NCBI GenBank assembly: GCA_028280105.1
Contig: JANQML010000020.1
Span: 1 to 64,000 of the forward strand
Length of the DNA stretch: 64,000 nt
From: Desulfobacula sp.
GTDB taxonomy: Bacteria > Desulfobacterota > Desulfobacteria > Desulfobacterales > Desulfobacteraceae
Direction of reading: 5' to 3'
Shown here: positions 32,801 to 55,729 of the stretch, piece by piece
Layout: each line of letters starts with the position of its first letter
Position numbering within the stretch: the first letter of the stretch is position 1
Made by a program: the position numbers and the translations under genes
The notes under the pieces: model-generated
What the model was told of the DNA's origin: nothing
Seen by the model: the letters and a program-made list of their open reading frames with translations, nothing else
The model's database searches: none

Positions 32801-34484
32801 TAATATTGCTTACAACAGCGTCACCTTGCAGGACAGTGCCTGAGCGGATAATTGTTCCGGCAGTCAATGTAGTGCCGGTGGTGATTCGCCCTTCTCCGTC
32901 CAAAGGGCCTGTTTGAGTAACCTTGGCAGTACCTTGCAGCACACTGCCCGAGGCTAATAATGATCCTTGGGAAAGGACCGAGTTCTGTCTGACGACGCTG
33001 AGGTCCGTTGTTTCATCTGTTGAGGCAATCGTTCCATCTCCCTTAAATAGGGTACCGGCACTGACGATGTTCCCGGCCAGCAATTCCGTTCCTTTCCCGA
33101 GAAGGCTATTTTTTGCAAGTACTGACCCGTTTTTTATAAGGCTTTCCGCATCGGTACTCCCCTGACCGGCCACCGTAATTCTGTCGCTGATTTCATTTTG
33201 AGTCAACAAAATAGACGTTTGAGCGAGCATAGAACCTTTGGGTAAAATCGTCTGATCTGAAATATGAATATCATTCTGAAACTGTGTCCCATAAAGGGTT
33301 TGATCTGTAATCCAAGGGTAATTTAAATACGTATTCTTAGCAAGAATACTTCCTGCCCCAATTTCCGCTGAGGTAGTCATTGCTGCAGTTTCGGCTAGTC
33401 CAATGCCCTTATCAGAAACAGATACGGGTTTCCCTTCTCCTATATTTCGGATGTCAAAATCCACGGAGCCGCGTGCCTTAAGCCGTAGTCTTCCGAATGT
33501 ACTCAGTTCGGTCCCTTTAAACACGGGGCCAAGCTCTTCGCCGGTTTCCACTTTGATGCCCCGGCCGTCAACAGATGTCAGGGTCAGCCGTCCCCCATTT
33601 TCAATGGAGGCCAACACACCATGATTAGGCGTTCTCAAATTGATTGCTTTGACCAATGCCCCATTCGAATCGTTCTCAGAGACGGCGAATCCTCCTATTT
33701 TGACACCGTTAATCGAAAAATCAGGAGAAGTAAAACCGGCTCCGATATTCAGATCTGTTGTAGAAATAACTTCAGAAACAGCCCGAACCCCTGTTTCATC
33801 AGAAGATCGATTGAATAAATCGGCCAGACCGGCCAGACTATTTTCCACGGAATTATCAAATGCAAGATTGACCGCCTCGATTTCAATAAAACGATTTGTT
33901 TGTCGACTCCTAATTCCCAAGTGAAGGATACCTTCCTTAGTACTGTCCAGTGAAAGTTCCCCTGTGGTAATATGCCCTATTTTATCAATAGTCGCCGCAC
34001 CAATGGACAGGTTCAGCCGTTCCCCGGAAAAGGCGCCGATCTGTACAAATTTATCGGTGAACCCGCCGGATAAAAGCTTCTGCCCGTTGAACGAGGTGGT
34101 CCTGGCGATCATATCAAGTTCTTCCAGCAGCTTTTGAATATCTGCCTGGATCGCCTTTCTGCTGGTAACGGTCTGCCCGTCCTGGGCTGCCTGGATGCTT
34201 TTTGTTTTTACGATGTTGATAATATTGACGGCCTCTTCGAGCGCGGCATCTGCAATCTGGGTAATGGATATGGCATCGTTTGCATTCCGGATGGCCTGTC
34301 CCAGTCCCCGGGCCTGGGAATGGAGCGAGTCGGCAATGGACATCCCCGAACTGTCGTCGGCTGCTTTATTAATTCTGAGCCCGGAACCGAGCCGTCCAAT
34401 GGATGCCGTACTTTTTGCCTGATTTTTATTCAAAAAGAGACTCGAGTTCAGCGCAGATATATTTGTATTGATACTGAGAACCAT
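29820..34484 (-). CDS. Giant flagellin (about 1554 aa), hexapeptide-like repeat insert
   Basis: MVLSINTNISALNSSLFLNKNQAKSTASIGRLGSGLRINKAADDSSGMSIADSLHSQ and C-terminal ESSIRDVDLSEEMLNYSKITILQETANFSIKNASIRAENLLSLF. Confidence 0.97.
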   Translation of the reverse strand: MVLSINTNISALNSSLFLNKNQAKSTASIGRLGSGLRINKAADDSSGMSIADSLHSQARGLGQAIRNANDAISITQIADAALEEAVNIINIVKTKSIQAAQDGQTVTSRKAIQADIQKLLEELDMIARTTSFNGQKLLSGGFTDKFVQIGAFSGERLNLSIGAATIDKIGHITTGELSLDSTKEGILHLGIRSRQTNRFIEIEAVNLAFDNSVENSLAGLADLFNRSSDETGVRAVSEVISTTDLNIGAGFTSPDFSINGVKIGGFAVSENDSNGALVKAINLRTPNHGVLASIENGGRLTLTSVDGRGIKVETGEELGPVFKGTELSTFGRLRLKARGSVDFDIRNIGEGKPVSVSDKGIGLAETAAMTTSAEIGAGSILAKNTYLNYPWITDQTLYGTQFQNDIHISDQTILPKGSMLAQTSILLTQNEISDRITVAGQGSTDAESLIKNGSVLAKNSLLGKGTELLAGNIVSAGTLFKGDGTIASTDETTDLSVVRQNSVLSQGSLLASGSVLQGTAKVTQTGPLDGEGRITTGTTLTAGTIIRSGTVLQGDAVVSNINTTTGVYSLTAGSSLATNTMLVNGTTLGGNAVVNQIAGTTGDYTMANGSYLTSNSVLGANTILTGAATVNTIGPITGDYSLSNGSTLTANSILSTNTTLTDPAVVNAVNLTGNLIVPNGSTLRTNTVLGDNTVLTDAAVVNLVANTTENYTIANNSTLRAGSVLGDNTVLTDTAVVNAVPNTTENYTIGNNSTLVTGTILGAGTNLTDSAVVNSINTTGNYTVANGSTLITGSFLSTGTIIKGAATIGAVGSTGTPGDVITLGAGTVLRAGTVLEAGFTLSTTGGNILGTGAPLGADVTTDINQNFPVQTGSIANGSILATDSNTGPNGVTLGANLNTTAAMTIPTGATIAANSIFATGSVIGPDKATLASDMTNLTGPLVLTVGSSIAGGSSLTTGSVIGADKATLASDMTNLAGPMTLAVGSTIAGNSTLAATSVIGADKATLASNMNVTGALTLTTGSTIGSNSSLAATTVIGSDSVTLASDMNITGAFTLRTGSTIFNGSTLGINSQIGPDLATLSSIMTLTAGAMTLTTGSTISALSRLNSGSVIGPDDAVLASDMSVITNMDVEIGSDIASGSVFHDGSTIGADDTVLISGMVLNNTMTLASGSTIATGSLLENNSLLAKDELILASGMLLDADMTLTTGSKLGSGSQIKYNSFIWADAELISSMVLQESVRLASNMTLATDLVLGEGSELGNGTELERGTSIYLKLELLEHMTIGENTVLDETSVIANRADSKIIAGTRVGGEARLARDLMLIDDFYMAKGSELGADSLLGNGSSIGGTIQTLLTEEVPQGTQMSLGKGSVLKGGSIIAQGTFLTNEIVSVTGDVYRPGTFLEDTITIERTQIDWPMSIESGSRIAAGSILNVNLEKESVNTRLNGLAISKLSDIQVLSGNEAQDAIEIADAALKDLGHLRSQLGSVHNQLSSAIAGITANQINLYASESSIRDVDLSEEMLNYSKITILQETANFSIKNASIRAENLLSLFTEQG
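31290..31760 (-). repeat. Second repeat block in giant flagellin 2 (VIGxDxxTLASDM, about 36-38 aa period)
   Basis: Repeated SVIGPDKATLASDMTNLTGPLVLTVGSSIAGGSSLTTG-like units in the translation. Confidence 0.85.
32095..32800 (-). repeat. In-frame tandem repeat in giant flagellin 2, 108-bp (36-aa) period, about seven units
   Basis: GVYSL/GDYTM/GDYSL/GNLIV/ENYTI/ENYTI/GNYTV anchors; measured anchors 32781, 32673, 32565 (108 nt apart), 32350, 32242 (108) and 32137 (105). Confidence 0.9.
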
Positions 34485-34489
34485 CCGGG

Positions 34490-34945
34490 TCACTCCGCGG
34501 GTTGTCTGGAAATCGCCTTTAATACGTCATATTGATGGGAGTAGTCTGAATCGCAGATGGCCATCTGAATCACTTCCTTTGTCTTGAGATTAACCACCAG
34601 CGGCCCCATGAGATTGGCCGTTATGCTCTTTTCCTTTTCTTCTTCCTTGATATTGATCACCACAAAAAGCAGCAACTCTTTAGATGTCACCCCTTTCCAG
34701 GCCCGGCTCTGGATGAGTGGGTTTAAATCCACCTGGTAATCGGGTTTAAAAACTTTTGGGTTCATTACGATCAGGGCGAGATCCGGCGTTTCAATGGATT
34801 GAAACCAGCAAAAAGGCGCTGTTTTTGGGTCTTCAAGCAGTACAAACCGCTCAAATCCTGAAAACCCGGGCAGGCCTTCGGGCATGCTCAGGATTTTCTC
34901 TTTATCAATCTCAACTTCCCCAAATTTTCTGGTATTAATTTTCAA
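34490..34945 (-). CDS. fliW: Flagellar assembly factor FliW
   Basis: FGEVEIDKEKILSMPEGLPGFSGFERFVLLEDPKTAPFCWFQSIETPDLALIV. Confidence 0.95.
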   Translation of the reverse strand: MKINTRKFGEVEIDKEKILSMPEGLPGFSGFERFVLLEDPKTAPFCWFQSIETPDLALIVMNPKVFKPDYQVDLNPLIQSRAWKGVTSKELLLFVVINIKEEEKEKSITANLMGPLVVNLKTKEVIQMAICDSDYSHQYDVLKAISRQPAE

Positions 34946-35207: not shown

Positions 35208-38200
35208 CTATCTTAAATAGTCAACAAGGCTTAAGCTAAGCACCTTTGAAGTGGAACTCAAGGCGGCCTGGTATGCGGTTTCAATATTTTTCAGGTTCAT
35301 GATGGACTCGATCATATCGGCATCCTCAATATTGGACCGCCTCTCTTTGAGTGTAAAACCGACTTGGGCGTTGATATTTTCCCTGACCACCAGGCGGTTG
35401 TACTTCATGCCCGCATCAACGATCAGTGATGTTGTATTATCATAATGCGTGTCCAGACGGCCGATGGTCTTTCCGATACCGTCTCGATCATTATCGGCTA
35501 AATATTGTTTCAAATCAATCAATGTATTAAAAATACCCCATTCCACCTCTCTGTTGCTCTGTGCGGGACTGTATATATCGTCATCAGGATCAAATCCGAG
35601 GATGGTGCCGATGGTCTGGCCCGAGCCCCCTTCCGATGCCGGGGCGTTATCTCCGGATTGCCAGACCAGCTGGAGTTCATCTAATTTTACACCATCTTCT
35701 TTTATGCTGAACCGTTTGGTCTGGCTGTCCCACGATACCGAATAATCTATAATATTACCATTGGCACGGGACTCGGCTTCAAGTGCCTCTTCCACTTCCT
35801 GGGCCAGTTCATCGTGACTGGTGTAAGTTTTCTGTTCAATGGAGGCCGTTAAAAATCCGGCCCTTCCCTGCCCGCCGGCAACAATCTCTTTAAAGTCGAT
35901 TTTATTGTTGGTTCCGTCAATCACGATATTGACGACATCTTCATCGCTTTCAGAGAACCGGACGCGGGTATCGGTAATGCTTGACAGACCCAGCTGTTGA
36001 GCTGCATTGGATCCGGAATAATCACCTGTCTGCCACAACAGATCAAATCCCTTAATACTTGAATCGCTGCCCTTAATCATAAAACCGTCATTGCTATCGT
36101 ATATCACCTCATAGGGTATACTGTTGGGGGATGCCGCTCTCATCTCCGTCTGGATGGCAGCGGCCACCTGGCTTAAATCATTGTAATTTCCCGCCGGTAT
36201 TTCGATATTCATTTCATTGGAGACGGTTCCGTCAATGCGGATCTCACGAAAGTCGATCCGGTTGTTTGTCGAATCAAACGAGAGCCATGTGGGGGCACTA
36301 CCGCTGCTGCTCGAATGGGAGGTAGCCCCGGTATCATCCAGGGAGGTATCATAGCCCAGAATATCTCCGATGGTATGCTGATTATTGGCACCGGTGTCCC
36401 ACAGCAGCTTAAGTTCATTTAACGCCGTTCCGGCGGTTGTCCGGAGAATATCAAAATGGTTGCCGGCCTCATCATATGAGACATCATAGACCACCGTATT
36501 CCCGGTTTCCTCGGACACCTTATTCATGGCCTGTTCCAGTGCATCTTCCAGTTCATGCACACTGGTATAGGTTCCCTGGGGAATGGAGGCCTGAAGGGTT
36601 GTGGATACGCCAGCCGTATTCACCTCTTCAAAATCGATCATGTTATTGGTGCCATCGATGGTGACAGAGAAAATCGACATTCTCATGGGATCGGTATCGC
36701 TATTGAACGGTCCCAACCCGGCACCGGTATCATCCAGCTCCGGGTCATATCCCAGGGTCTCACCAATGGAAGAGGACCGCCCGTCACCGGTGTGCCACAG
36801 GAGATTAAAATCCGTTAGAGCCGCTCCCCCGGTCTGCTGGATCGCAAACTGGCTCAGGGCCGGGTTGTATGAGATATTATAATTATACGCAGAAACCGAT
36901 TCCATGGCTGCCTCAACCGCAGCAGCCAGGTCCGCCATTGTTTCGTATGTTCCGTTTGGGATAATCGCCTGAAGGCTTGTAGACGCCCCCCCGGTGGACT
37001 CTGCAAAATCCAGCCGGTTATTTGTATTGTCGATGATGATGGCACTGTGAGGGTATGAAATCGTGTCATCCAGCGGATGATACCCCAGGGTTTGGGCCGA
37101 GGCCGTGGTTGCCGACCATTGAATCTCCAGCTCATTTAAATCCGTTCCATTCTCCCGGATATTGAACCGGCTGTTCACGGCATCGTAGGAAACCGTATAA
37201 TCGATGGTGTTGGCACCGGATGTGGGTGCGGCACTCGCACTTTCCATGGCCTGTTCAATGGCCCGGGCAAGTGCGTCCATATCAGAATATGTGACAGCCG
37301 CACCGCTGGTATTAAAATTGGCGGTCAGCGTCTGCTGGAGCCCTGCCGCATTTGTCTCAATAAAATTGATGGTATTGTTTCCGCTGGTTCCAATGGTGAT
37401 GTCCGTGACAAACGCGGCCTGAAAATCGGACACAGGGGGTGCCTGAACAATATTGCCGCTGTTAAAACCGATATCATGACCCACTGAGGTATCCGTGGTT
37501 ATGGGTTCAATTTCAAATTCAATATAATCTCCGTCTGCCACCGGTGTATCAAATGAGATCCTGATATCGGTTACGCCCTCGTCATTCAGGGCAATATCAA
37601 CACCGCGGGATGTACCGGAAAACTCTGTGGGCATCTCATAACCGGGATTGTCCGCCACCCGCCATTTCTTATCTGCCTTGTCCCAGGTGAGGCGAATGGG
37701 TGCAGGACCGTCCTCATCAGTTGTACGGATCGTCAATGCACTCTCTCTTACCACATCAACATCAATGTCCATGGGATCGATATCCGATGATCCCTGAATA
37801 TTGTAGACATATGCATCATTGCCTGAGTCCCACATGAATTCCGTACGAATATACCCGTCATAGCTGCCGTCTTCCCGGATTGAAAATTTTTGTGTGATCT
37901 CGTCAAAATCAACCTCATACCGGGCACCGTATCCATGGGATGCGGATTGTTCGTTTAATGCATTTCGAATCACTGTTTCCAGTTCCGATTTTCCATAGGA
38001 TCCCTGGGGGATGCGGGCTATCAGTATTCTTTCAGACGTATCACCGTGGCCGTTATCCTGCTTAAAAACAATGGTATCATTTGTCGATTTGATCTCAATC
38101 TCCTGATCCCAAAAGGTCGTATCCCCGGTCCTGCCCACGGTCACACTGCTCCCCCTGTCCGTTAGTACGTCAAAGGCGGTGGAATTGCCATTATAGAGGA

Positions 38201-38663
38201 CCTTGTTCAACACCCTGTCATAGGTCAGGGCGGCTTTATCGGTATCTGTTCCGCTGAAAATATAGTTTCCGTTGATCTGGGTATTTCCCAGAGAGACAAT
38301 CAGCTCAATGGCATCATCCACCCGCTGAATGGCCTCTCTTCGTTGTTTTGCTGTGGTTGAGTCATTCGCCAAACCGCTAATATCTTGCTTGTTAAGTTCG
38401 ACGATGATATCATTGATGCTTCCTAACGCCTCCTCAATACTTCGAATCCAGGATTTTCCCATATTGACGTTTACCGCAGTCTGATCGATGTTTCCCAGGG
38501 TGTTGTTTATCGTCAATACCTGGCTCAGCCCTAAAGGATCATCTGAAATGTCATTTAATTGTTTGGTGGTGCTGGCAACTTTGTTTGCATTCTCAAGATC
38601 ACCGGTCATCAGACCCAACCGATAGGTTGAATTGACATATGTCGAAAGATTGGGAACTCTCAT
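35208..38663 (-). CDS. flgL: Oversized hook-associated protein FlgL (1151 aa)
   Basis: MRVPNLSTYVNSTYRLGLMTGDLENANKVASTTKQLNDISDDPLGLSQVLTINNTL N-terminus; C-terminal NIEDADMIESIMNLKNIETAYQAALSSTSKVLSLSLVDYL; multiple internal module copies. Confidence 0.93.
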   Translation of the reverse strand: MRVPNLSTYVNSTYRLGLMTGDLENANKVASTTKQLNDISDDPLGLSQVLTINNTLGNIDQTAVNVNMGKSWIRSIEEALGSINDIIVELNKQDISGLANDSTTAKQRREAIQRVDDAIELIVSLGNTQINGNYIFSGTDTDKAALTYDRVLNKVLYNGNSTAFDVLTDRGSSVTVGRTGDTTFWDQEIEIKSTNDTIVFKQDNGHGDTSERILIARIPQGSYGKSELETVIRNALNEQSASHGYGARYEVDFDEITQKFSIREDGSYDGYIRTEFMWDSGNDAYVYNIQGSSDIDPMDIDVDVVRESALTIRTTDEDGPAPIRLTWDKADKKWRVADNPGYEMPTEFSGTSRGVDIALNDEGVTDIRISFDTPVADGDYIEFEIEPITTDTSVGHDIGFNSGNIVQAPPVSDFQAAFVTDITIGTSGNNTINFIETNAAGLQQTLTANFNTSGAAVTYSDMDALARAIEQAMESASAAPTSGANTIDYTVSYDAVNSRFNIRENGTDLNELEIQWSATTASAQTLGYHPLDDTISYPHSAIIIDNTNNRLDFAESTGGASTSLQAIIPNGTYETMADLAAAVEAAMESVSAYNYNISYNPALSQFAIQQTGGAALTDFNLLWHTGDGRSSSIGETLGYDPELDDTGAGLGPFNSDTDPMRMSIFSVTIDGTNNMIDFEEVNTAGVSTTLQASIPQGTYTSVHELEDALEQAMNKVSEETGNTVVYDVSYDEAGNHFDILRTTAGTALNELKLLWDTGANNQHTIGDILGYDTSLDDTGATSHSSSSGSAPTWLSFDSTNNRIDFREIRIDGTVSNEMNIEIPAGNYNDLSQVAAAIQTEMRAASPNSIPYEVIYDSNDGFMIKGSDSSIKGFDLLWQTGDYSGSNAAQQLGLSSITDTRVRFSESDEDVVNIVIDGTNNKIDFKEIVAGGQGRAGFLTASIEQKTYTSHDELAQEVEEALEAESRANGNIIDYSVSWDSQTKRFSIKEDGVKLDELQLVWQSGDNAPASEGGSGQTIGTILGFDPDDDIYSPAQSNREVEWGIFNTLIDLKQYLADNDRDGIGKTIGRLDTHYDNTTSLIVDAGMKYNRLVVRENINAQVGFTLKERRSNIEDADMIESIMNLKNIETAYQAALSSTSKVLSLSLVDYLR

Positions 38664-38676
38664 ATCATTTCTCCTG

Positions 38677-41600
38677 CTATCTCATGGAAATAAGCGTATT
38701 TAACATCTCATCGGAAACCGTCAACAGCTTGGAAGCGGCTGAGAATGCATGCTGAAATTTCATCAATCTGATCATCTCTTCATCCAGAGATACGGCTGAA
38801 ACGGCATTTCTCTGTTCCGTGATACTGTTGACCATGATATCGGCAAAATCCTTTGCGTTTTTAATGCTTCGCGATTCAATACCCAAAGAGCCCATCATCT
38901 GTGTAAAATACTCGTCAATGGAGGCATTGGCAATACTGGACTCCGGTTCTTCCCCTCTTTGATAGGTCCATATTTTCATCTGCTGTGTGATATGCTGGGC
39001 AGCGGCAATCGCCCTTGCATTGGTACCATCCCCTTCGCTCAAATGGCCGGTCTCACTGTCAATTGCCGAAGCGGCAATCAGACGGGTATCCGACAACTTG
39101 TCGTTCACTTCCATGGTCATGGCATCGACCCCTTTAAAGAAGGTGTTGATGCCTGCCGCCGCCACCAAACCCGATGCTGATGAATCATTGTCGGAAAAAG
39201 CAAATCCGATATCTTCTGAATCATGTTTTTCAAAATCGAATTCCAGATGGCCTGCCCCGGTCACCCGCTCATTAAATTCAATCCGGATGTCTGCCAGGCC
39301 ATCGCCGGTAAAATCAACACCAAATCCGTCATCATCCCCGCCCTCGGGAATCAGTTGCAGATTCCCGCCGGTGGGGTCATTGGAATAGCTCCAAAAACCG
39401 TCTGCAGACCGTTCAAACCGAAGGTCCGAAGCCTTAAAATCAATGGCGCTCCAATCCGTTACAACAATGGAAACATTTGTTTCGTCGAACCCGTTTTCTC
39501 CGGAGTATTGTTCGTTTTTCATGGCATGATAGGTTTCGGATGCTTCAAATTTCAACCGGTTGTCCAATGTTGCAACCGCTTTCATACCAAAGGCGTCTTT
39601 GTTAAACTGATCGGCAAAAGAATCGATGGTCCAATGCCAGTCAGACAATTTCTCTCCCGTGGGCCGGCCGTCTGTGGTTTCAAACTGCGGCAGGCCGGTG
39701 TCACCTGTGGTGATGGTGAACACATCATCCGCCACCAGCGTACCGTCGGCAAAATTCAGTGTCATTCCGTCAACATCCACCACTACGGGAGATTTCGGTG
39801 TAAAGGGCGGATCATGGCCTTCGATTGTAAATGTCCCGGTTTCCACACTATTGGTCCACTCAATGACAAGAGGGGGATCATTTCCCGATGGCAGGTGCCC
39901 GACTTTTCCGCCTGAAACCACCCTGAAACGATAGATATCATTGATACTGTTGGCCCGGCCCGTTATATGGAAATCAAGGGGATCAGGATTACCCGTTGTA
40001 TCCGTATTGATCACCATGGTATTTCCGGCAACCAGGCTGCCCTTTGAGATATCAAACGACACCGTCTCAATACCGGATTCGGTAATGACAACCTGACCTT
40101 CATCTTCAACGGTAAGCAGACCGGAGGCGCCGGTGCTGATCCCGTCCGTGTTCAGGCGTTCCCACAGGATCGTTCCGGTATCATTGTACAGTGTAGAGGT
40201 CGTTGAATTCCGGAAGCTTCTTGCTGGGTCCGCCTCTATGCGGTCATTTTCAGGCTGATTACTTCCCTTTCCCGTTCCGGTCCGAACCTGAATCTCGGCA
40301 TTGCTGCCAAAACTGTCTGTAAAATTGTCAATGGTGATGGGATCATCCAAAGAGCTGTCTTTAATGACGGAAACGGAAGTGCCGGTTCGGATGACCTGAT
40401 AATCGGTGCTTAGCCCCGCTGCCAGCTCTGCTTCTATAAGTGTTGCCAGCGCAAGATCAGACGTACCGCCGGCTGAAGTGGTTGAAAATGAAATGGTGGT
40501 GCCGTCCAGATCAAACGAGATGGTTTCACCGGCGGCCGTGGATGATGTGAATCCGGTAAACCCGCCATCTCCTCCCAGGGTGATAATCGAACTGCCGACC
40601 TTTGCCAGGCTGCTGTCAAACAGCCCGCCTGATCCGGCTCCGGAAACATTGGTTTGAATATTCATACCCGGTTCCATTACCACTGTCAGAGTACCGGTAA
40701 TCACCGCTGTTTTGTTAACAGCCCCGGCGGTTGACTCATTGATGGTTACCTGGGTGTCCTGGCCGGAAAAAATAAGGTCATCCCCTGAAGTGGTGTCTGC
40801 ATTGTACCGCGCCGTGTCGTTTGCCGCGGCTGTAAAGTCGAGAATCGAATCGACATTACCCGCATCCGCGGTTGTTCCGGAGAGCGATGTAATGGTGATG
40901 GCGGCATCGTCTCCCGAATCGTTGCCCGCATCCCGGACCCGGATGTCCGAACCGTCCGTGCTTCTGATTTTAACGGAGTTGGTGGACGCATCTTTTTCAA
41001 CCACAAAAGGCGTTCCGGAAAGCGCTTCGGCAATTTTATCGCCGAAAACGGCAGCCAGCTCTGCCTGATCGGTTGTATCAATATCGGACAGATCAACGGA
41101 AACAGATGTAGTGCTTGCCGCCGATGTTCCAGACATGGAATCAATCGTAAAGGTAACCACATCACCTTCATTAAAATTGGTAAAATTGCCTAAAGAGATA
41201 CCGGCATTATCCGTCACATTAAAATCCTGTACCCCCAGGGTTTTTCCGGAACTGCTTTTTATGGTCGAACCGCTGACGACCAGATCATTATCCGCATTGG
41301 TGTCATTAATTTTCTCGGCGACCGATAAAAGCGCATCTTCGAATTGTTCCAGAAGCGTCCCGATGGAAGAATCCCTTGTAAAGCTGACCGGTTCGATAAT
41401 ACCGTCCACATACAATGAAAACGACACGATATCTCCATCCTCGGCATTGGTTATGGATCCCGTATTAAATGTTCCTTCGGTTTCAGATGCAAAGGCTTCA
41501 ACCCCACCGACAGCGTTCAGCGCCTCGGCGACAGATGCGGCAGAGCGCCGGGCATGGCCGCCGCTGTCCCTGACATTAATCACCTGGGTGCCGTCCGGGC

Positions 41601-42936
41601 CGCCGAAAACACGCAGGGTTTGATCTGCAATGGCCCGGTCCAACGTCATTGCAACCGTAGTTGCAGCACCGGAAGTCAACGTCAATCCCCACATCCGGCC
41701 CAGTCCGTCACCATCGGTTTCAGTCACCTCTTTATTACCAAGGACGGCGTCATCAACAACGGTTAACCGGTATTTATACGGCAGTTCACTGGGTGCCCGG
41801 CCCTGCCAGTTGGAAATTCTTGCCTCGGATATCCCCATGTCGATACTGATTTTATTATATTGGGTATCACTGGTGCTCGTATCCTCCACCCACATATTGA
41901 AATCCTTGGAATAATCAATTTTTATTCCAAAATCAAAACTGGACAGCCAGCGGCTGTCGTCGGTTGAATAATCGCCGGTAATCGGCTCGTCAAAGTAACT
42001 GCTCCCGATACCCTGGGAATGCTGGTAGTTGATTGCCCAGATCATCTCCCGTGACAACTCATTCACTTCGGCACGATATTTGGGAATAATGGTATCTCTC
42101 ATTTCAAGTAACCCGCCGATTCTGCCGCTGGTGATATCATCGGAAATAATCTGTTCTCCGGAAGCTGAATTCTCCCATGCCACTTCTTTCTCCACCATTG
42201 TCAAACGGTACATCTCCACCTTTGAAACAACGGTAAAGTTGCCTGCGGCATTCACGGTCACCGTCCCGTCGGAGTGTTCATAGGTAGTGATATCAATCAA
42301 CTCACCCATTTCATCCAGCAACCGGTTTCTCAAATCCCTCTGATCATTTGCCGTTCGGTTGATCTCGTTTCCTGCAATTTTTCGATTCAGGTCGGCAATT
42401 TGTGCTGACAGGGTATTCACCCGCCCCACTGCCGCACTGATGTCCTGGGTAATATCATTTACCATGTCATCCATTTTTAAAACAGCAGACTCAAAATTGG
42501 TGGCGATTCTTTCTCCGCTCTCAAAAACAGCGATTCTTTCCGACGGCCCGCCCGGATTAAGAGAAATATTCTGCCAGGATTTCCAGAAGTCTGTCATTGC
42601 AACGCTGATACTGCTATCAGAGGTAATATCAAAGAATCCTTCCAAAATCCTCATATAGGATTCCTGCTCGTCAAATGATGCCTGGATGGAGATTTCAGAT
42701 GTCAGCCGTCTTTCCAGCAAGTTATCCACATTCTGCCGAACCTGCTCCATATCCACACCGGTCCCGAAAAGGAACCCGGCATATTCAGCCGGCGTGCGGT
42801 TAAAATGTTCGGCCCTTTGAACGCTGTAGTCGGGATTATTAACGTTGGCAATATTCTGGCCTGTAATGTTCAAACCGTATTGCTGAGCCGCAATCGCCGT
42901 TCTCGCTATACTGAGGGTGGAAGATATGCCGGACAT
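38677..42936 (-). CDS. flgK: Oversized hook-associated protein FlgK (1419 aa)
   Basis: SSTLSIARTAIAAQQYGLNITGQNIANVNNPDYSVQRAEH; C-terminal ISEQRNAVSAVSLDEEMIRLMKFQHAFSAASKLLTVSDEMLNTLISMR-type ending. Confidence 0.95.
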   Translation of the reverse strand: MSGISSTLSIARTAIAAQQYGLNITGQNIANVNNPDYSVQRAEHFNRTPAEYAGFLFGTGVDMEQVRQNVDNLLERRLTSEISIQASFDEQESYMRILEGFFDITSDSSISVAMTDFWKSWQNISLNPGGPSERIAVFESGERIATNFESAVLKMDDMVNDITQDISAAVGRVNTLSAQIADLNRKIAGNEINRTANDQRDLRNRLLDEMGELIDITTYEHSDGTVTVNAAGNFTVVSKVEMYRLTMVEKEVAWENSASGEQIISDDITSGRIGGLLEMRDTIIPKYRAEVNELSREMIWAINYQHSQGIGSSYFDEPITGDYSTDDSRWLSSFDFGIKIDYSKDFNMWVEDTSTSDTQYNKISIDMGISEARISNWQGRAPSELPYKYRLTVVDDAVLGNKEVTETDGDGLGRMWGLTLTSGAATTVAMTLDRAIADQTLRVFGGPDGTQVINVRDSGGHARRSAASVAEALNAVGGVEAFASETEGTFNTGSITNAEDGDIVSFSLYVDGIIEPVSFTRDSSIGTLLEQFEDALLSVAEKINDTNADNDLVVSGSTIKSSSGKTLGVQDFNVTDNAGISLGNFTNFNEGDVVTFTIDSMSGTSAASTTSVSVDLSDIDTTDQAELAAVFGDKIAEALSGTPFVVEKDASTNSVKIRSTDGSDIRVRDAGNDSGDDAAITITSLSGTTADAGNVDSILDFTAAANDTARYNADTTSGDDLIFSGQDTQVTINESTAGAVNKTAVITGTLTVVMEPGMNIQTNVSGAGSGGLFDSSLAKVGSSIITLGGDGGFTGFTSSTAAGETISFDLDGTTISFSTTSAGGTSDLALATLIEAELAAGLSTDYQVIRTGTSVSVIKDSSLDDPITIDNFTDSFGSNAEIQVRTGTGKGSNQPENDRIEADPARSFRNSTTSTLYNDTGTILWERLNTDGISTGASGLLTVEDEGQVVITESGIETVSFDISKGSLVAGNTMVINTDTTGNPDPLDFHITGRANSINDIYRFRVVSGGKVGHLPSGNDPPLVIEWTNSVETGTFTIEGHDPPFTPKSPVVVDVDGMTLNFADGTLVADDVFTITTGDTGLPQFETTDGRPTGEKLSDWHWTIDSFADQFNKDAFGMKAVATLDNRLKFEASETYHAMKNEQYSGENGFDETNVSIVVTDWSAIDFKASDLRFERSADGFWSYSNDPTGGNLQLIPEGGDDDGFGVDFTGDGLADIRIEFNERVTGAGHLEFDFEKHDSEDIGFAFSDNDSSASGLVAAAGINTFFKGVDAMTMEVNDKLSDTRLIAASAIDSETGHLSEGDGTNARAIAAAQHITQQMKIWTYQRGEEPESSIANASIDEYFTQMMGSLGIESRSIKNAKDFADIMVNSITEQRNAVSAVSLDEEMIRLMKFQHAFSAASKLLTVSDEMLNTLISMR

Positions 42937-48980: not shown

Positions 48981-50042
48981 TTACACCACGATATTGAAAA
49001 CCGAAGCATCGCCGGTTTTTACAAGGGATTCGACAAGGCTCCCGGGTTGTGTTTCTTCAGGCCGGGCCAGGCAGCATTCTATCTTTCGGGCATGGTAGGC
49101 CTGATCCAGCAGTTTTGATTTCAATTCCGGAATCAAAGACTGAATATAATGCCGGGTTTCCTCATCAGCCAAAAGGAACCGGCCGGAAAGCTCCTGTTTA
49201 TAGATTGAAAAATCAGCTCTCAACGGACCCAGCCGGGTCATATCGAGTAAAAAAGAGATGTTGATCACTTTATCTGTTTCATTCCGGTCCGAGTCACCGG
49301 AAACGCCGGTATCAATCATCAACTGGCCGAAACGAAATCCGGGATCGCTGAAAACCGGGAACGGCAATAAATATCGTCCGGATTCGGAGCTGTGATGATT
49401 GAGCAGCTGAAAATTTTCCAAACTCTCAAAAAACGATGCTGCCATGTTCATTGCACCCGGCCTGCCCGGCCCTGCCTTTATGAGTTCCCCATGGATATGG
49501 GCCTTGAGGTCCTGTTGTGCCAGCCCGTCCATGACGGTCTTTAATGCCGTTGAACCGGTCCCTTCCGATATGATCCGGGCAATCTTATTCTCCAGGGTTA
49601 TGCCGCTTTTTTCGATCAGACGGGGTAAAAAATCGATATCTGCTTTGCCGGATTTAAGGGCCATCTCTTTTAAAAGCCCGTTTGCCAGAGGCAACCGTGC
49701 CCGGGTAATATCGGGAATAGAATCGGTTTGAGAAAAAAAACCAACCAGCGAAGAGATCTGTCGTGATGTCATTTCCCGGACCGGACCGATCAGTTTAAGA
49801 GTGATGCTCTCCTTTGCGCGAGTCACTTTGAGTTGAACCTCTTCTCCCGGGGTCAACAGCATGGCGGTTTTGGCCTCAATCAACCGGCCGTCGAACAAAA
49901 GCTGGGCCTTGCCTTGGGGAAGAGAGGCAACCACCTTGGCCGTGATAACCTGATTTTTAGTGAATGATGGAAACTGACTCTTTTTTCCGGTACCGGTCTT
50001 GAGGACTATCTCGGAAGATGAGATATGGACACCGGAGATCAT
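48981..50042 (-). CDS. FliK-like hook-length-control family protein
   Basis: Position next to the FlhB-like gene; N-terminal AKVVASLPQGKAQLLFDGRLIEAKTAMLLTPGEEVQLKVTRAKESITLKL and C-terminal LDMTRLGPLRADFSIYKQELSGRFLLADEETRHYIQSLIPELKSKL (FliK C-domain-like). Confidence 0.7.
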   Translation of the reverse strand: MISGVHISSSEIVLKTGTGKKSQFPSFTKNQVITAKVVASLPQGKAQLLFDGRLIEAKTAMLLTPGEEVQLKVTRAKESITLKLIGPVREMTSRQISSLVGFFSQTDSIPDITRARLPLANGLLKEMALKSGKADIDFLPRLIEKSGITLENKIARIISEGTGSTALKTVMDGLAQQDLKAHIHGELIKAGPGRPGAMNMAASFFESLENFQLLNHHSSESGRYLLPFPVFSDPGFRFGQLMIDTGVSGDSDRNETDKVINISFLLDMTRLGPLRADFSIYKQELSGRFLLADEETRHYIQSLIPELKSKLLDQAYHARKIECCLARPEETQPGSLVESLVKTGDASVFNIVV

Positions 50043-50626
50043 GAATGGCGCTGCTCCATTTCAAGAAACTTTTTTTTCAGATCAATCACCATGGTTACCT
50101 CCCCTTTGGGAACGGATAATTGCCGGGCAATATCATCCGGGGAAAATCGTTGTTCATACAATTCAATAATACGGTGCTGCTGGTCGAGAACGGCCGAAGA
50201 GGAAGCGTCCGGATTTAAGGCCGGGGCTGCCAAGGAGACGGGAGAGGGTTTGTTCAATTGCTCCAGAAGTTTGTTCTGCTGGGTTTCGGCCCGGGACAAG
50301 AGCAGGTTGATGTTGATGATCCGGTCGTCCAAGGCGTGATTGAGCGCCTTTAACAATCTTTTTTTTTCTTTGACCTGTTCATCAAATGCGATGGCGGTTT
50401 TTTTGGATTCCCGCATCAACGGTTCAAGCATTTTAATGATATCGGTTGCGGAGTTGGAGGCATGACGCCTTTCGGCATGGGCATCTTCTTCCTGCCGATT
50501 ATTCTCTTTGGCAACGAACTTTAACCGGTTTATTTTTTTTGCCTGAACAAATAAAATGACCACCAGCAGAAACTGAAATATGAAAAGGGTTGCGATCCAA
50601 AATTCATTTGAGAATAATATGATCAT
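50039..50626 (-). CDS. Membrane-anchored coiled-coil protein with C-terminal helix-turn-helix-like segment (DUF2802/DUF6115-like), flagellar cluster
   Basis: N-terminal TM (FWIATLFIFQFLLVVILFVQ); C-terminal IIELYEQRFSPDDIARQLSVPKGEVTMVIDLKKKF. Confidence 0.55.
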   Translation of the reverse strand: MIILFSNEFWIATLFIFQFLLVVILFVQAKKINRLKFVAKENNRQEEDAHAERRHASNSATDIIKMLEPLMRESKKTAIAFDEQVKEKKRLLKALNHALDDRIININLLLSRAETQQNKLLEQLNKPSPVSLAAPALNPDASSSAVLDQQHRIIELYEQRFSPDDIARQLSVPKGEVTMVIDLKKKFLEMEQRHS

Positions 50627-50925
50627 GCTGTTGTGTCCAGCAACCTGCCCGTTGCATCCGGGTCCTGATCCAACTCTTCCTGCCGTCTCTTCCGTTTCTC
50701 TCTCTCCTGCTGCTCCCTTTTGGCTTGAGACTCTTTTTCTTTTTTCGCCCGAAGCCGCTCTCCCGCTTCAAACTCCTGAACCGTTGTATTCTTAATCCGA
50801 TCCCTGATTTCCTGTTGAGCAGCAGCCTGTTCCGGAGACGGTTTGGGTGAATGAGACTGCTGAGTCAGTTCCTGGGCAGCACCGGATTGCTGAATCACAA
50901 TATTATGTCCTGGTACTGTCGTCAT
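50623..50925 (-). CDS. Small charged protein of unknown function in flagellar operon
   Basis: Start/stop overlap with neighbours; lysine/glutamate/arginine-rich C-terminal half. Confidence 0.5.
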   Translation of the reverse strand: MTTVPGHNIVIQQSGAAQELTQQSHSPKPSPEQAAAQQEIRDRIKNTTVQEFEAGERLRAKKEKESQAKREQQEREKRKRRQEELDQDPDATGRLLDTTA

Positions 50926-50939
50926 TTGAAACCTTAATT

Positions 50940-52895
50940 TTAGCTGGCCTTAAACATTTTAAAACTGACCCGTTCAATATAATGAACCGGTAATACCTTT
51001 TTCAAAGTCATTTCAACCACCTCCAGCATATCTGCTTCCGTTACCTCATGTCCCTCGTCAGCGGCCAGACTTTTTCTCAACGAGTCGTAAATCAGGTCAC
51101 GGTAAAAGGAGAGATTATCATTAATTTCATGATAAGCCCTTTGATCGGAATAATCAATAGAGATATCTGCTGTAATATAAGAGAGTTCTCTGGACTGGAG
51201 AGGTGCCAGAATAACGAAATCCTCCAGAACCAGATTACCGGGTTTCCGATCTATCCTCACCTCTTGAAGATCAATGGTCACCGTATCAACGACAATCTCT
51301 CTATGGGTTTGTGCCGGTATTCCGGCAACAGGAGACGCAGTGACCGCTTCGGATCCGGGATCAGATGAAAAAAAGAAAAAATAGGACACCGGCACCACAA
51401 TGCCCAGAACCAGTAGCCCGGAAGCGCAGGCAAGGACCAGCCTGGACTTTAAAAACCCTGTTTTGCTTTTCTTTTTTACCTTTTTCTTTTCTGATTCGGC
51501 AACCGGTTCGTCATCATCCCCTTCAAGGACCACCGGTTCTTCCCCTTCTTCATCACCGAAGTCCTCGTCAAACTCGTCACCCAGATCCCCGTCGTCTTCC
51601 ATATCCATCATATCACCCAGCAGATCTTCATCTTCCTGATCCGCCGCCATCAGAAGCGTGTCAATATCGTCCTGTGAAATGAGAATATCGTCATCGTCGT
51701 CATCATCCGTTTCCATCAGCAGGGCATCAATATCATCCTGGCTGACATCGTCATCTTCATCAAAATCCAGGCTGTCAAGATCATCGGTACTCGTCCGCAA
51801 CAGGTCATCCGTATCATCGAGGTTGACCACCTCGTCCCCTTTGGAGTCATCCTTTAAAATATCGTCCAGCGAGTCGTCCACAGGTTCGGGAACAATTGAC
51901 AGATCCTCTTCAGAGTCAAGATCCAGATCAGACAGGGGATCTCCGGCACCATCTGCCGGTTCTTCTGCAGGTGTATCATCAAAATTTTTAATCAAATCGT
52001 CCAGGGTCTCCTGGGTAATCAGACACCCTTCAACAGCAACGGCTTCAGTGTCGTCAATCACAACATCAGCGGGGTCTTCTTCTGTAGAATCAGCCGCCTT
52101 CACTTCCTCAGCGGCCGGTTCCGGACCGGCCGCATCCGTCTCATCCGGATCGGAATCTAAAACCGGCTCCGGCCCGGATTGATCATCAGGTTCATCACCG
52201 GATTCGCCAGACGCTTCAGGTTCGGTCTGTTCAGGTCCGGGCGGATTGTCTGCCTCCGAGCTGTTCATCAAATTGTTGATATCATCCTGAGAGATCATCT
52301 CAAACGCATCGTCTTCATCCGGCTCCGGCGATGAGCCGGTATTCATCATGGCATCGATATCATCCTGGGAAAGTTCACCGGTCTCTGCCTCAATCTCAGG
52401 CTCGGGTTCAGGTTCAGGTTCAGGGGCATCCGGCGTATTTGAATTCATCAGGCTGTCAATATCATCCTGGGAGAGTTCCCCCGGCTCTTCCGAAGCGTCC
52501 GGCTCATCCGGTTCAGATGAATTCATCAGGCTGTCGATATCATCCTGTGAAATCAGCTCCATCTCATCGTCGTCCAAACCGTCATCGGACGGTATATCAT
52601 CTTCGGCACCTGTCGAAGGGTTTGAATTCATCAGATTGTCGATATCGTCCTGGGACAATTCGCCCAAATCGTCGGTCTCCAGTTCGGTTTCAGCCGGGGC
52701 TGTTTCAGCCGGATCATCCAGAGCAGGCCCGTTCATCAGAGAATCAATATCGTCCTGTGAGAGCTCACCCAAGTCATCTGAATCTTCACTTGAAATCAAA
52801 TCCTCGGCCTCTTCTATGGATGATGAATCCAAAAGCTTGTCAATATCATCCTGGGAGATTAGACTTTCCTCTTCTTCTATGGTTGGATCCGACAT
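50940..52895 (-). CDS. Membrane protein with FliL-like periplasmic domain and cytoplasmic array of FliM-like SQDDIDxLL/M motifs
   Basis: Nine SQDD(I)(D/N)xLL/M motifs plus one degenerate; single TM after EKKKVKKKSKTGFLKSR; C-terminal FliL-like domain ...LEDFVILAPLQSRELSYITADISIDYSDQRAYHEIND...HYIERVSFKMFKAS (tentative). Confidence 0.75.
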   Translation of the reverse strand: MSDPTIEEEESLISQDDIDKLLDSSSIEEAEDLISSEDSDDLGELSQDDIDSLMNGPALDDPAETAPAETELETDDLGELSQDDIDNLMNSNPSTGAEDDIPSDDGLDDDEMELISQDDIDSLMNSSEPDEPDASEEPGELSQDDIDSLMNSNTPDAPEPEPEPEPEIEAETGELSQDDIDAMMNTGSSPEPDEDDAFEMISQDDINNLMNSSEADNPPGPEQTEPEASGESGDEPDDQSGPEPVLDSDPDETDAAGPEPAAEEVKAADSTEEDPADVVIDDTEAVAVEGCLITQETLDDLIKNFDDTPAEEPADGAGDPLSDLDLDSEEDLSIVPEPVDDSLDDILKDDSKGDEVVNLDDTDDLLRTSTDDLDSLDFDEDDDVSQDDIDALLMETDDDDDDDILISQDDIDTLLMAADQEDEDLLGDMMDMEDDGDLGDEFDEDFGDEEGEEPVVLEGDDDEPVAESEKKKVKKKSKTGFLKSRLVLACASGLLVLGIVVPVSYFFFFSSDPGSEAVTASPVAGIPAQTHREIVVDTVTIDLQEVRIDRKPGNLVLEDFVILAPLQSRELSYITADISIDYSDQRAYHEINDNLSFYRDLIYDSLRKSLAADEGHEVTEADMLEVVEMTLKKVLPVHYIERVSFKMFKAS

Positions 52896-52910: not shown

Positions 52911-53657
52911 TTAAGTTACATAATCCTGAAGCCCGGCCTTTAATTTAACAAGAATCGCCGTATGGATCTGACAGATTCTTGATTCCGTCAGTGTAAGCAC
53001 TTCCCCGATCTCTTTTAGCGTCAACTCCTCATAATAATACAATGAGACAACCATCTGCTCTTTTTGGCTCAATTTTTTTATATTTTTTGCCAGAACATAT
53101 TTCAGTTCCTGTTTATCAAAACTGTCTGCCGGGTCATCCTCTCCTTTAACACCGGTTTGAAACCGAGTCTTTGAATAGGTATCGTTTTTTTTGGTTTTGA
53201 TAAATTCATCCAGGCTTAAAATGGAAGCACCGTGGATATGGGTCAGCATATCATAGTAAGCTTCCAGACTGACACCCAGCTCCTGGCTGATGTCGTCATC
53301 CGTAGCCGATGCGCCTTTTCGGTCTTCCACGCTTTTAACCGCTTTGGCAATATCCTGAATTTTCTTCCGCATGGACCGGGAATAGGTGTCCATACTCCGC
53401 AATTCATCCAGGATGGCTCCTTTTATCCGGTACTGGGCATAGGTTTTCAGACTGACATGTTTAGAAGGATCATACTTATCCACCGCATCAATCAACCCCA
53501 AAGACCCGGCAGATAACAGTTCGTCAAAAAAAACACTGGACGGCAGTCGCATGGCGAAACGGGAGGCAATATGCTTAACCAGGTAAGCGTATTCCACGAT
53601 TGTTTTTTCCCGCCACGTTTCATCTTCGATTTTATTTGCCGGGTACTGTTTTTTCAT
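52911..53657 (-). CDS. fliA: Flagellar sigma factor FliA (sigma-28)
   Basis: YAYLVKHIASRFAMRLPSSVFFDELLSAGSLGLIDAVDKYDPSKHVSLKTYAQYRIKGAILDELRSMD; LTLKEIGEVLTLTESRICQIHTAILVKLK. Confidence 0.96.
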   Translation of the reverse strand: MKKQYPANKIEDETWREKTIVEYAYLVKHIASRFAMRLPSSVFFDELLSAGSLGLIDAVDKYDPSKHVSLKTYAQYRIKGAILDELRSMDTYSRSMRKKIQDIAKAVKSVEDRKGASATDDDISQELGVSLEAYYDMLTHIHGASILSLDEFIKTKKNDTYSKTRFQTGVKGEDDPADSFDKQELKYVLAKNIKKLSQKEQMVVSLYYYEELTLKEIGEVLTLTESRICQIHTAILVKLKAGLQDYVT

Positions 53658-53676: not shown

Positions 53677-54570
53677 TTATTTTACCGCCTGAAAAACCCG
53701 GTTCATAAAAAAAGTCAGATTACCGCTGGAATGCGGCCGTTCCGGGGCTGTTTCAAGTTTGGATGAAATATTCTTAATCGCTTTGGCAGCAGGGGAATCC
53801 GGCGCATTATCCATGATCAGGCTCCGTTTTTGGACCGACCGCTGCAACTGGCGGTCAAAGGGAATAAATCCGGTATACTCCAGAACCACATTCCCTAAAA
53901 ACTTATCCAGAGCCCCGCTCAATGACGCATAGACCCGCTTGGCTTCCTCCGGTGTCTCCACCATATTGACGACCAGTTTAAAATACCGGGTGCCGTATTC
54001 CTGTGACATCACCTTCATCATGGCATAGGCATCTGTAATCGAAGTCGGTTCCTTGGTTGCGATGACCAGGCATTCATCACAGGCGGAGTTAAAATAAAGA
54101 ACATTGGATGATATGCCGGCCCCGGTGTCCACGAGTATGATATCGGCTTGGTCTGCCAACGTCTCAAATTCGCTTAACAGGGTCAGTTTTTCCCCTTCAT
54201 TGAGTTGGGTGAAATTTGCAAATCCCGATCCGCCGGGAAGGATTTTAACGCCGTGATCAGATGTTACCATGACCTGATTCAACGTTTTTTCAGCAGAGAT
54301 CACATGTTTGATATTATAGTCGGGACGCAGATTAAAAATAATGTCAATATTTGCAAGCCCCACATCCGCATCAATAATGACCACCCGGTTACCGGCCCGG
54401 GTCAATGCCACGGCCATGTTTCCCACCAGGTTGGTTTTACCGACGCCCCCTTTCCCGCTGGTCACGGCAATCACCCGCGGTAATTTTTCTTTGCCAGATC
54501 CCATATGTAAATTATCCCTTGAAAGTACGTTTTTTTTTACAGCCTCTCGAAGTCCTCTTGCTTGGTCCAA
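53677..54570 (-). CDS. flhG: FlhG/FleN MinD-family ATPase
   Basis: RVIAVTSGKGGVGKTNLVGNMAVALTRAGNRVVIIDADVGLANIDIIFNL; N-terminal LREAVKKN. Confidence 0.93.
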   Translation of the reverse strand: MDQARGLREAVKKNVLSRDNLHMGSGKEKLPRVIAVTSGKGGVGKTNLVGNMAVALTRAGNRVVIIDADVGLANIDIIFNLRPDYNIKHVISAEKTLNQVMVTSDHGVKILPGGSGFANFTQLNEGEKLTLLSEFETLADQADIILVDTGAGISSNVLYFNSACDECLVIATKEPTSITDAYAMMKVMSQEYGTRYFKLVVNMVETPEEAKRVYASLSGALDKFLGNVVLEYTGFIPFDRQLQRSVQKRSLIMDNAPDSPAAKAIKNISSKLETAPERPHSSGNLTFFMNRVFQAVK

Positions 54571-54571
54571 G

Positions 54572-55729
54572 TTATTTCTCTCCTCCGGGCCCGGCCCCCA
54601 AAATAATTTTCAGCAACTGCTGTTTGTCGGGAACAATCAGATCCTCGGGAACCCTTTGTCCGTTGGCGATCAAGGATACAGGCAGGCGTATCTCGCTGAT
54701 CTGATCCAGTATTTTGCCACATCGCCTGGTTTCATCGATCTTTGTAAAAACGATAGTCTCCGGGTTGAATACGGAAAATGCAGATGCCGCATCCTTCATA
54801 ATAGTCGATTCAGATGTAACACTCAAGACCAAATGAGTGGAAATCCTGAAATCGGTCTTTATCAACTGGAGTATTTCATCAATTTTCGGTTTATCCAGAT
54901 GACTGTGGCCGGCGGTATCGATCAGCACCATGTCCGAAGATTTCATCCGGTCAAGCGCATGGACCAGGTCCTGACTGCTGAAAGCCGGAACACAGGGCAG
55001 TCCCATGATCGACGCATAGGCTTTGAGCTGTTCAAATGCGCCCACCCGGTAATTGTCAATGGAAATCAGGCCGACCTTCATTTTTTTGGTAAAGGTCAGA
55101 TTGGCCGCCAGCTTGGCCAGTGTGGTGGTTTTCCCGACACCGGTGGGACCCACAAAGGCGGCCACATGAGGAATTCCCGCCGGTTTGTCCCGGGTGAAAT
55201 AATCCCGCGTGGCAATCTCCTCCATGCATTGCCCCATGACATATTTTTTCAACGATTTGATTTTTGCCTTCTGCTCCTTGTTTTCATCCATGAGGCCGGA
55301 GGCGTTCTGTATCAACCGGGCTGCAAGCGGTTCGCTCACACCGGCCCGCAGCAGGGAGGCAAGAATGCCCACGGATTCAAAATGGTTACAGACCATATTC
55401 TGCATTCCTGTGCCAAAACCGGCAATGGATATCATATCTTTAATGTCTGCAATATCATCTCTGATATCTGCCATGGCATCCTCTGATGCGCCTCCCTCAA
55501 CCGGTTGTGATCTTTTGAAGGCATCGGGCCGGATCAGCGGAGGGCCTGTATGAGCCGGAATTTTTTCCGGCACGGCCGCTTCAACTTCAAACATCGGTTT
55601 TGCATAAGGATCCCGGGGTGTTCGTGGAATTTTCCGGGTATTGAGAATCATGGCATCCGCGCCCATCTCCTCTTTGATACTCGCAATGGCCTGTTGAATG
55701 TTACTGGCTTTAAACACTTTCCTGTTCAT
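54572..55729 (-). CDS. flhF: Flagellar biosynthesis GTPase FlhF
   Basis: MNRKVFKASNIQQAIASIKEEMGADAMILNTRKI; VAAFVGPTGVGKTTTLAKLAANLTF SRP-type GTPase. Confidence 0.96.
   Translation of the reverse strand: MNRKVFKASNIQQAIASIKEEMGADAMILNTRKIPRTPRDPYAKPMFEVEAAVPEKIPAHTGPPLIRPDAFKRSQPVEGGASEDAMADIRDDIADIKDMISIAGFGTGMQNMVCNHFESVGILASLLRAGVSEPLAARLIQNASGLMDENKEQKAKIKSLKKYVMGQCMEEIATRDYFTRDKPAGIPHVAAFVGPTGVGKTTTLAKLAANLTFTKKMKVGLISIDNYRVGAFEQLKAYASIMGLPCVPAFSSQDLVHALDRMKSSDMVLIDTAGHSHLDKPKIDEILQLIKTDFRISTHLVLSVTSESTIMKDAASAFSVFNPETIVFTKIDETRRCGKILDQISEIRLPVSLIANGQRVPEDLIVPDKQQLLKIILGAGPGGEK

Follow-up and report, generated by a model that had tools for sequence, protein, structure and literature searches.

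The window, by which we mean the whole stretch of 64,000 nucleotides of Desulfobacula sp. DNA analysed here, holds a run of flagellar genes in the order flhA-flhF-flhG-fliA-FliL2-orf100-DUF6115 protein-fliK-like-small flhB-like-flgF-flgI. FliL2 is the name coined in the present analysis for the window's second FliL. The order around its slot recurs in related genomes wherever contigs extend far enough. In the window flhG stands two genes upstream of FliL2, and a ribosome-binding-like stretch, AAAAGAGGTC, lies directly upstream of the FliL2 start. The genes and protein features concerned are listed below, each with its basis.

54572..55729, minus strand: flhF, SRP-type GTPase (Pfam)
53677..54570, minus strand: flhG, MinD-like ATPase and candidate partner, starting MDQARGLR, a DQAxxLR motif (Pfam, sequence)
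52911..53657, minus strand: fliA, flagellar sigma factor, upstream neighbour of FliL2 across a 15-nt gap (Pfam)
50940..52895, minus strand: FliL2 gene, a FliL paralogue of 651 aa with a putative docking-motif array, probably cytoplasmic (ORF list, translation)
51492..52895, minus strand: N-terminal acidic tail, residues 1-468, with all motif copies inside (translation, composition)
52827..52859, minus strand: motif 1, ISQDDIDKLLD (translation)
52731..52763, minus strand: motif 2, LSQDDIDSLMN (translation)
52626..52658, minus strand: motif 3, LSQDDIDNLMN (translation)
52521..52553, minus strand: motif 4, ISQDDIDSLMN (translation)
52443..52475, minus strand: motif 5, LSQDDIDSLMN (translation)
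52341..52373, minus strand: motif 6, LSQDDIDAMMN (translation)
52263..52295, minus strand: motif 7, ISQDDINNLMN (translation)
51990..52022, minus strand: variant motif LITQETLDDLI, residues 292-302, conserved in position among close relatives (translation, relatives)
51714..51746, minus strand: motif 8, VSQDDIDALLM (translation)
51648..51680, minus strand: motif 9, ISQDDIDTLLM (translation)
51462..51491, minus strand: Lys-rich stretch EKKKVKKKSK, residues 469-478, N-terminal to the transmembrane helix (translation)
51369..51440, minus strand: single transmembrane (TM) helix, residues about 486-509 (TM prediction, translation)
50943..51368, minus strand: extracytoplasmic linker and FliL/SPFH domain, about 142 residues after the TM helix (family alignment, fold)
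50623..50925, minus strand: orf100, conserved small neighbour, no Pfam family (Pfam, relatives)
50039..50626, minus strand: DUF6115 protein related to FipA (DUF2802) (Pfam, family scan)

FipA, which combines an N-terminal TM helix with DUF2802, is known from gammaproteobacteria as a polar recruiter of FlhF. At the level of family profiles the DUF6115 neighbour groups with FipA, DUF2802 being matched by 19 of its 20 family members. The FipA-type G/E/L spacing (+0/+16/+19) is present in DUF6115 relatives (e.g. L045, L061), and the window protein itself (50039-50626, minus strand) carries R/E/M at the positions of FipA's conserved G/E/L. FipA recruits FlhF, and its conserved residues are G110/E126/L129 (PMC11620751). 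The small, charged orf100 product has conserved ends (MTTIPxxNIVxQQG ... GRLLDTxx), and its gene occupies the slot between FliL2 and the FipA-like gene throughout the array clade described below. Elsewhere in the window lie two giant flagellins (22307-26593, plus strand, 1428 aa; 29820-34493, minus strand, 1557 aa), with inserts of long degenerate repeats of the type TGSxLAAGTVLAAGxxLGSG, and two unusually long hook-junction proteins with repeated internal domains, one FlgL-like (1151 aa; 35208-38663, minus strand) and one FlgK-like (1419 aa; 38677-42936, minus strand).

A divergent second FliL and its motif array

Taken alone, the window protein gave no convincing FliL match in single-sequence Pfam and NCBIfam scans. 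In an alignment of the C-domains of 38 FliL2 family members (alignment A1), 30 of the 38 matched Pfam FliL (PF03748) at E<0.05, the best at 3.3e-10, and the family profile matched solved FliL chains in the PDB with E values of 5.5e-10 and 7.1e-10. The closest PDB folds to an AlphaFold2 model of the FliL2 C-terminal domain (mean pLDDT 87) are H. pylori FliL (7sgn; TMt 0.71-0.77) and then stomatin SPFH domains. The domain is a genuine, though diverged, FliL/SPFH domain; the FliL-like character claimed in an earlier sequence-only reading of this DNA is upheld through family alignment and fold, the single protein being scoreless. A Glce_b_sandwich match (E 0.007), found in one family member only, was set aside as chance, and a Pfam scan of FliL2 found no FliM/CheC-like or SPOA domain.

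The canonical fliL of the same genome (221 aa) lies on contig C2 beside fliM, fliN, fliO and fliP, and FliL2 is a second FliL apart from it. The predicted cytoplasmic part of FliL2 is about 470-480 residues long, not short, and hence marks the protein as a FliL paralogue or variant rather than a canonical FliL. No prior description of a FliL with tandem docking motifs was found in the freely accessible literature searched, within which FliL2 with its array is an undescribed FliL variant; the same reading had known of no such system either.

The tail is acidic, with 113 D and 70 E within residues 1-480, and is probably disordered. Because a Lys-rich stretch precedes the TM helix, the positive-inside rule places the tail on the probable cytoplasmic side of the membrane; the single TM helix after a Lys-rich stretch that had been claimed for this protein is found at residues about 486-509, after residues 469-478. 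Within the tail are nine copies of the motif Φ-SQDDI[DN]-x-L-[LM], each N-terminal to the single TM helix, the SQDDI[DN] cores starting at residues 14, 46, 81, 116, 142, 176, 202, 385 and 407. Translation confirms the nine (L/I)SQDDIDxL(L/M) copies and the additional LITQETLDDLI reported for 50940-52895. When the tail residues were shuffled 20,000 times, the mean was 0.0002 motifs and the maximum 1, against 9 observed. Pairwise codon differences between the six-residue cores of the copies comprise 80 synonymous and 8 non-synonymous changes, and Tandem Repeats Finder detected no DNA repeat array under the motifs except for a 29-bp run with a 6-bp period. Taken with the shuffling result, this synonymous excess and the lack of a DNA repeat array mean that the motif is maintained by protein-level selection. 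The codon differences and the repeat search likewise rule out that the copies arose by recent DNA duplication.

The N-terminal peptide of E. coli FliM, ILSQAEIDALL, has I at position 5. FliM of the window genome begins MSEILSQDEVDSLLDG, in keeping with the proposed likeness between the array and the FliM N-terminus; the array fits the docking pattern hydrophobic-[ST]Q-x-[DE]-[ILV]-D-x-L-L, and its LL end is as in FliM. Every cognate FliM peptide recovered in the order has E at position 4 and V at position 5. Of 252 array copies tallied with a loose skeleton pattern, 208 carry D at position 4, 247 carry I or L at position 5, and 1 has V there. At the sequence level the array motif departs from the cognate FliM motif throughout (D4/I5 versus E4/V5), which rules out that the array is a copy of it. 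In the window genome the pattern is matched in FliL2 (nine times), FliM (once) and two other places (L011, L012), the L011 match lying within a malate/lactate-dehydrogenase-like frame; five further genomes gave one match only beyond the FliL2 gene region. At the end of contig C189 of G068, two matches adjoin that genome's flhG and are read as the N-terminus that its FliL2 is missing.

Distribution and origin of the array

Relatives were searched for in 146 genomes of the order, with the TM helix and C-terminal domain of FliL2 only as the query. They were found in 27 of the 146 genomes, and 26 of these 27 proteins carry the motif, including matches as weak as E 9e-4; strict motif copies in this survey are N-terminal to the TM helix in 100% of cases. 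FliM is present in 26 of the 27 FliL2 genomes versus 52 of the other 119. A motif census of 49 sequences (two of them halves of one gene split across contigs) recorded at least one copy in 38 and at least two in 34, with 226 strict copies in the 38 sequences, 1 to 15 per ORF, at a median spacing of 36 residues. The residue before S/T, left free in the search pattern, is I/V/L/F/M in 100% of array copies.

A tree of FlhG (84 rows) unites the motif-bearing FliL2s (32 arrays, 2 single, 1 degenerate) in one clade with 100/99 support, spanning 18 family-level labels as well as named Desulfobacteraceae; no complete motif loss was seen inside this clade among the genomes sampled. The neighbouring group in the tree comprises twelve FliL2s without the motif (92/60). 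Motif-free FliL2 is further found in less closely related members of the phylum, and FliL2 is absent altogether from another lineage of the same order. Short FliL2s with a single N-terminal motif were also found (L045, L048, L102). Close relatives (Desulfobacteraceae, Desulfobacula and Desulfotignum MAGs) have 3-13 copies by the strict pattern; in the Desulfobacteraceae relatives the first, last and LITQETLD copies hold their position and the middle copies expand, L206 having eight near-identical middle units of about 22 aa and L210 five. Judged from these comparisons, namely the survey, the one supported clade and the lack of complete loss, the array is a clade-defining, selected feature with a single origin. 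Its explanation as a strain-specific expansion is ruled out by the order survey and the FlhG tree. A search for SQDDID across the order, which the sequence-only reading had suggested, thus found the motif in all but one of the FliL2 proteins detected through the TM helix and C-domain, and it is retained in close orthologues, where its absence would have spoken against that reading.

FliL2 tails without the FliM motif occur in other lineages (L170-L174, L177-L182, L186, L189). They share other short acidic motifs, among them KVELDKADLPIL (L180, L189), VELDLDDAPFL (L177-L179) and DDELWEDxxxxxxLFEE (L171, L173). These shared motifs suggest a general role of the FliL2 tail as a docking platform.

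Candidate partners of the array

The FliL2 tail is very likely a docking array. The FliM N-terminal peptide has two documented partners, CheY, its classical ligand, and FlhG. Our first choice, held tentatively and at somewhat less than an even chance, is that FliL2 is a motor-held multivalent scaffold whose likeliest client is CheY-P, a plausible partner that the sequence-only reading had also suggested, forming a local reservoir or antenna beside the switch. It is established that CheY binds the EIDAL motif of FliM (PMC6946799). A canonical stand-alone cheY stands exactly between fliA and FliL2 in L170, L171, L173, L174, L180, L181, L182 and L186, all outside the order, and this position directly before FliL2 leans towards CheY as the partner; within the array clade no cheY adjoining FliL2 was found, and this, like the constant difference between array and cognate FliM motifs, speaks against CheY-P.

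The array may instead dock FlhG, gathering it at the membrane close to the pole or the motor and so controlling FliM/FliN delivery to the C-ring, FlhF turnover and flagellar number, so that FliL2 would count FlhG or act as its sink; we regard this as a real possibility, close behind the first choice. FlhG binds the C-ring via the FliM N-terminus in monotrichous bacteria (PMC12826062), FlhG of Geobacillus and Shewanella binds FliM/FliY (PMC7226244), and the operon to which FliL2 belongs, flhF-flhG-fliA-FliL2-orf100-fipA-like, is one for flagellar positioning, FipA being the recruiter of FlhF (PMC11620751). Wherever the contig extends there, flhG is encoded beside FliL2. However, it is equally present with motif-free FliL2 and in the clade that lacks FliL2, so the presence of FlhG is not enough to demand an array; and it is the gene of the classical ligand, cheY, that adjoins FliL2 in other lineages. 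Among array genomes, CheA is missing in only G002 and G102. Of these, G102 (84% completeness) encodes 2 MCPs and has a congener with CheA, so only G002 counts as a discriminator. In this genome, at 92% completeness, no match to CheA, CheW or MCP was found, yet FliL2 with two motif copies and the FliM motif are both kept, which leans towards FlhG over CheY-P, although the argument is that of one incomplete genome. Because FlhG binds the same region of FliM and FliL2 has flhG, flhF and FipA-like neighbours, motif identity cannot decide whether the scaffold serves CheY-P or FlhG. On the sequence evidence as a whole we weigh CheY-P slightly above FlhG as the client, and both could be true. As a separate observation, FliM retains its N-terminal motif in G002 and G094, both lacking detectable CheA and CheW, a hint that the FliM peptide may have a chemotaxis-independent role.

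We consider it quite unlikely that the array docks some other motor-associated partner, such as a specialised CheY-like regulator, a CheY-P phosphatase or an assembly factor. Such a partner would explain the systematic D4/I5 versus E4/V5 difference between array and FliM across the order, and in one genome (L118) a response regulator with TPR repeats stands between fliA and FliL2. Yet E. coli FliM carries I5, so the array motif falls inside the known FliM range, and no alternative partner of the motif is documented in the literature searched. Far less probable still is that the array is a product of drift, a repetitive acidic linker expanded by slippage and serving no specific partner. The middle of the tail does expand and contract, as the eight units of L206 and the five of L210 illustrate, but the motif cores are under purifying selection by their excess of synonymous changes, the motif stays while the linkers diverge, the first, last and variant copies are fixed in place across Desulfobacteraceae, and neither complete loss in the clade nor more than one motif on shuffling was seen.

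For the preferred CheY-P scaffold, the following mechanism can be envisaged. The periplasmic FliL/SPFH domain and TM helix would anchor FliL2 to the flagellar motor, where it would probably form a complete or partial ring close to the stators, and the long acidic tail would present many FliM-type docking peptides in the cytoplasm. Rings of FliL around the stators have been proposed (PMC6426602), and motor output can be restrained or modulated through FliL's N-terminal region (PMC10127578). The tail would thereby act as a membrane-anchored multivalent scaffold, concentrating next to the C-ring whichever protein binds the FliM N-terminus; if CheY-P is bound, the array may be a local reservoir that raises and buffers CheY-P near the switch, and changes in copy number in the middle tail would tune its valency. 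A bolder version, which we think unlikely, has FliL2 rings wrapping each motor in hundreds of FliM-like sites as a high-avidity store of both CheY-P and FlhG, coupling switching to flagellar number through one shared peptide.

The FliM N-terminal peptide is a classic CheY-P tether and also a site for FlhG, and here a clade of bacteria carries up to 15 or more copies on a second, membrane-anchored FliL, with no loss among the genomes sampled. Binding of CheY-P, if true, would mean that motor switching draws on a large nearby reservoir, an arrangement that is not known from model motors; binding of FlhG, if true, would provide a new scaffold for the control of flagellar number. With either partner FliL2 would offer a natural test of multivalency at the motor, and the cytoplasmic tail of FliL would emerge as an evolvable docking platform.

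FliL2 beside known systems

FliL2 shares with FliL (PF03748) a single TM helix, an extracytoplasmic FliL/SPFH fold and a place in a flagellar operon. It differs in that it follows fliA, whereas canonical fliL adjoins fliM, and in its tail of about 470 residues with putative docking motifs, compared with 17 residues in Vibrio FliL (PMC6426602). Like the FliM N-terminal peptide, the array copies are short linear motifs of the form hydrophobic-[ST]Q-x-[DE]-[IVL]-D-x-L-L, but they occur many times over in a membrane protein that has neither FliM/CheC-like nor SPOA domains, and with D4 and I/L5 in place of the cognate E4 and V5. The EIDAL motif is also found sporadically in FliN/FliY. The polar landmarks FipA and HubP are likewise membrane proteins encoded or interacting with FlhF/FlhG, and FliL2 adjoins a FipA-like gene; unlike them, it has a FliL fold and a motif array instead of a DUF2802 or LysM-type domain. 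FliY of the Bacillus type is a flagellar protein with an EIDAL-type N-terminus and a reported binder of FlhG (PMC12826062), but it is soluble, belongs to the C-ring and carries one motif, in contrast to FliL2, a membrane protein whose tail can hold up to 15 or more.
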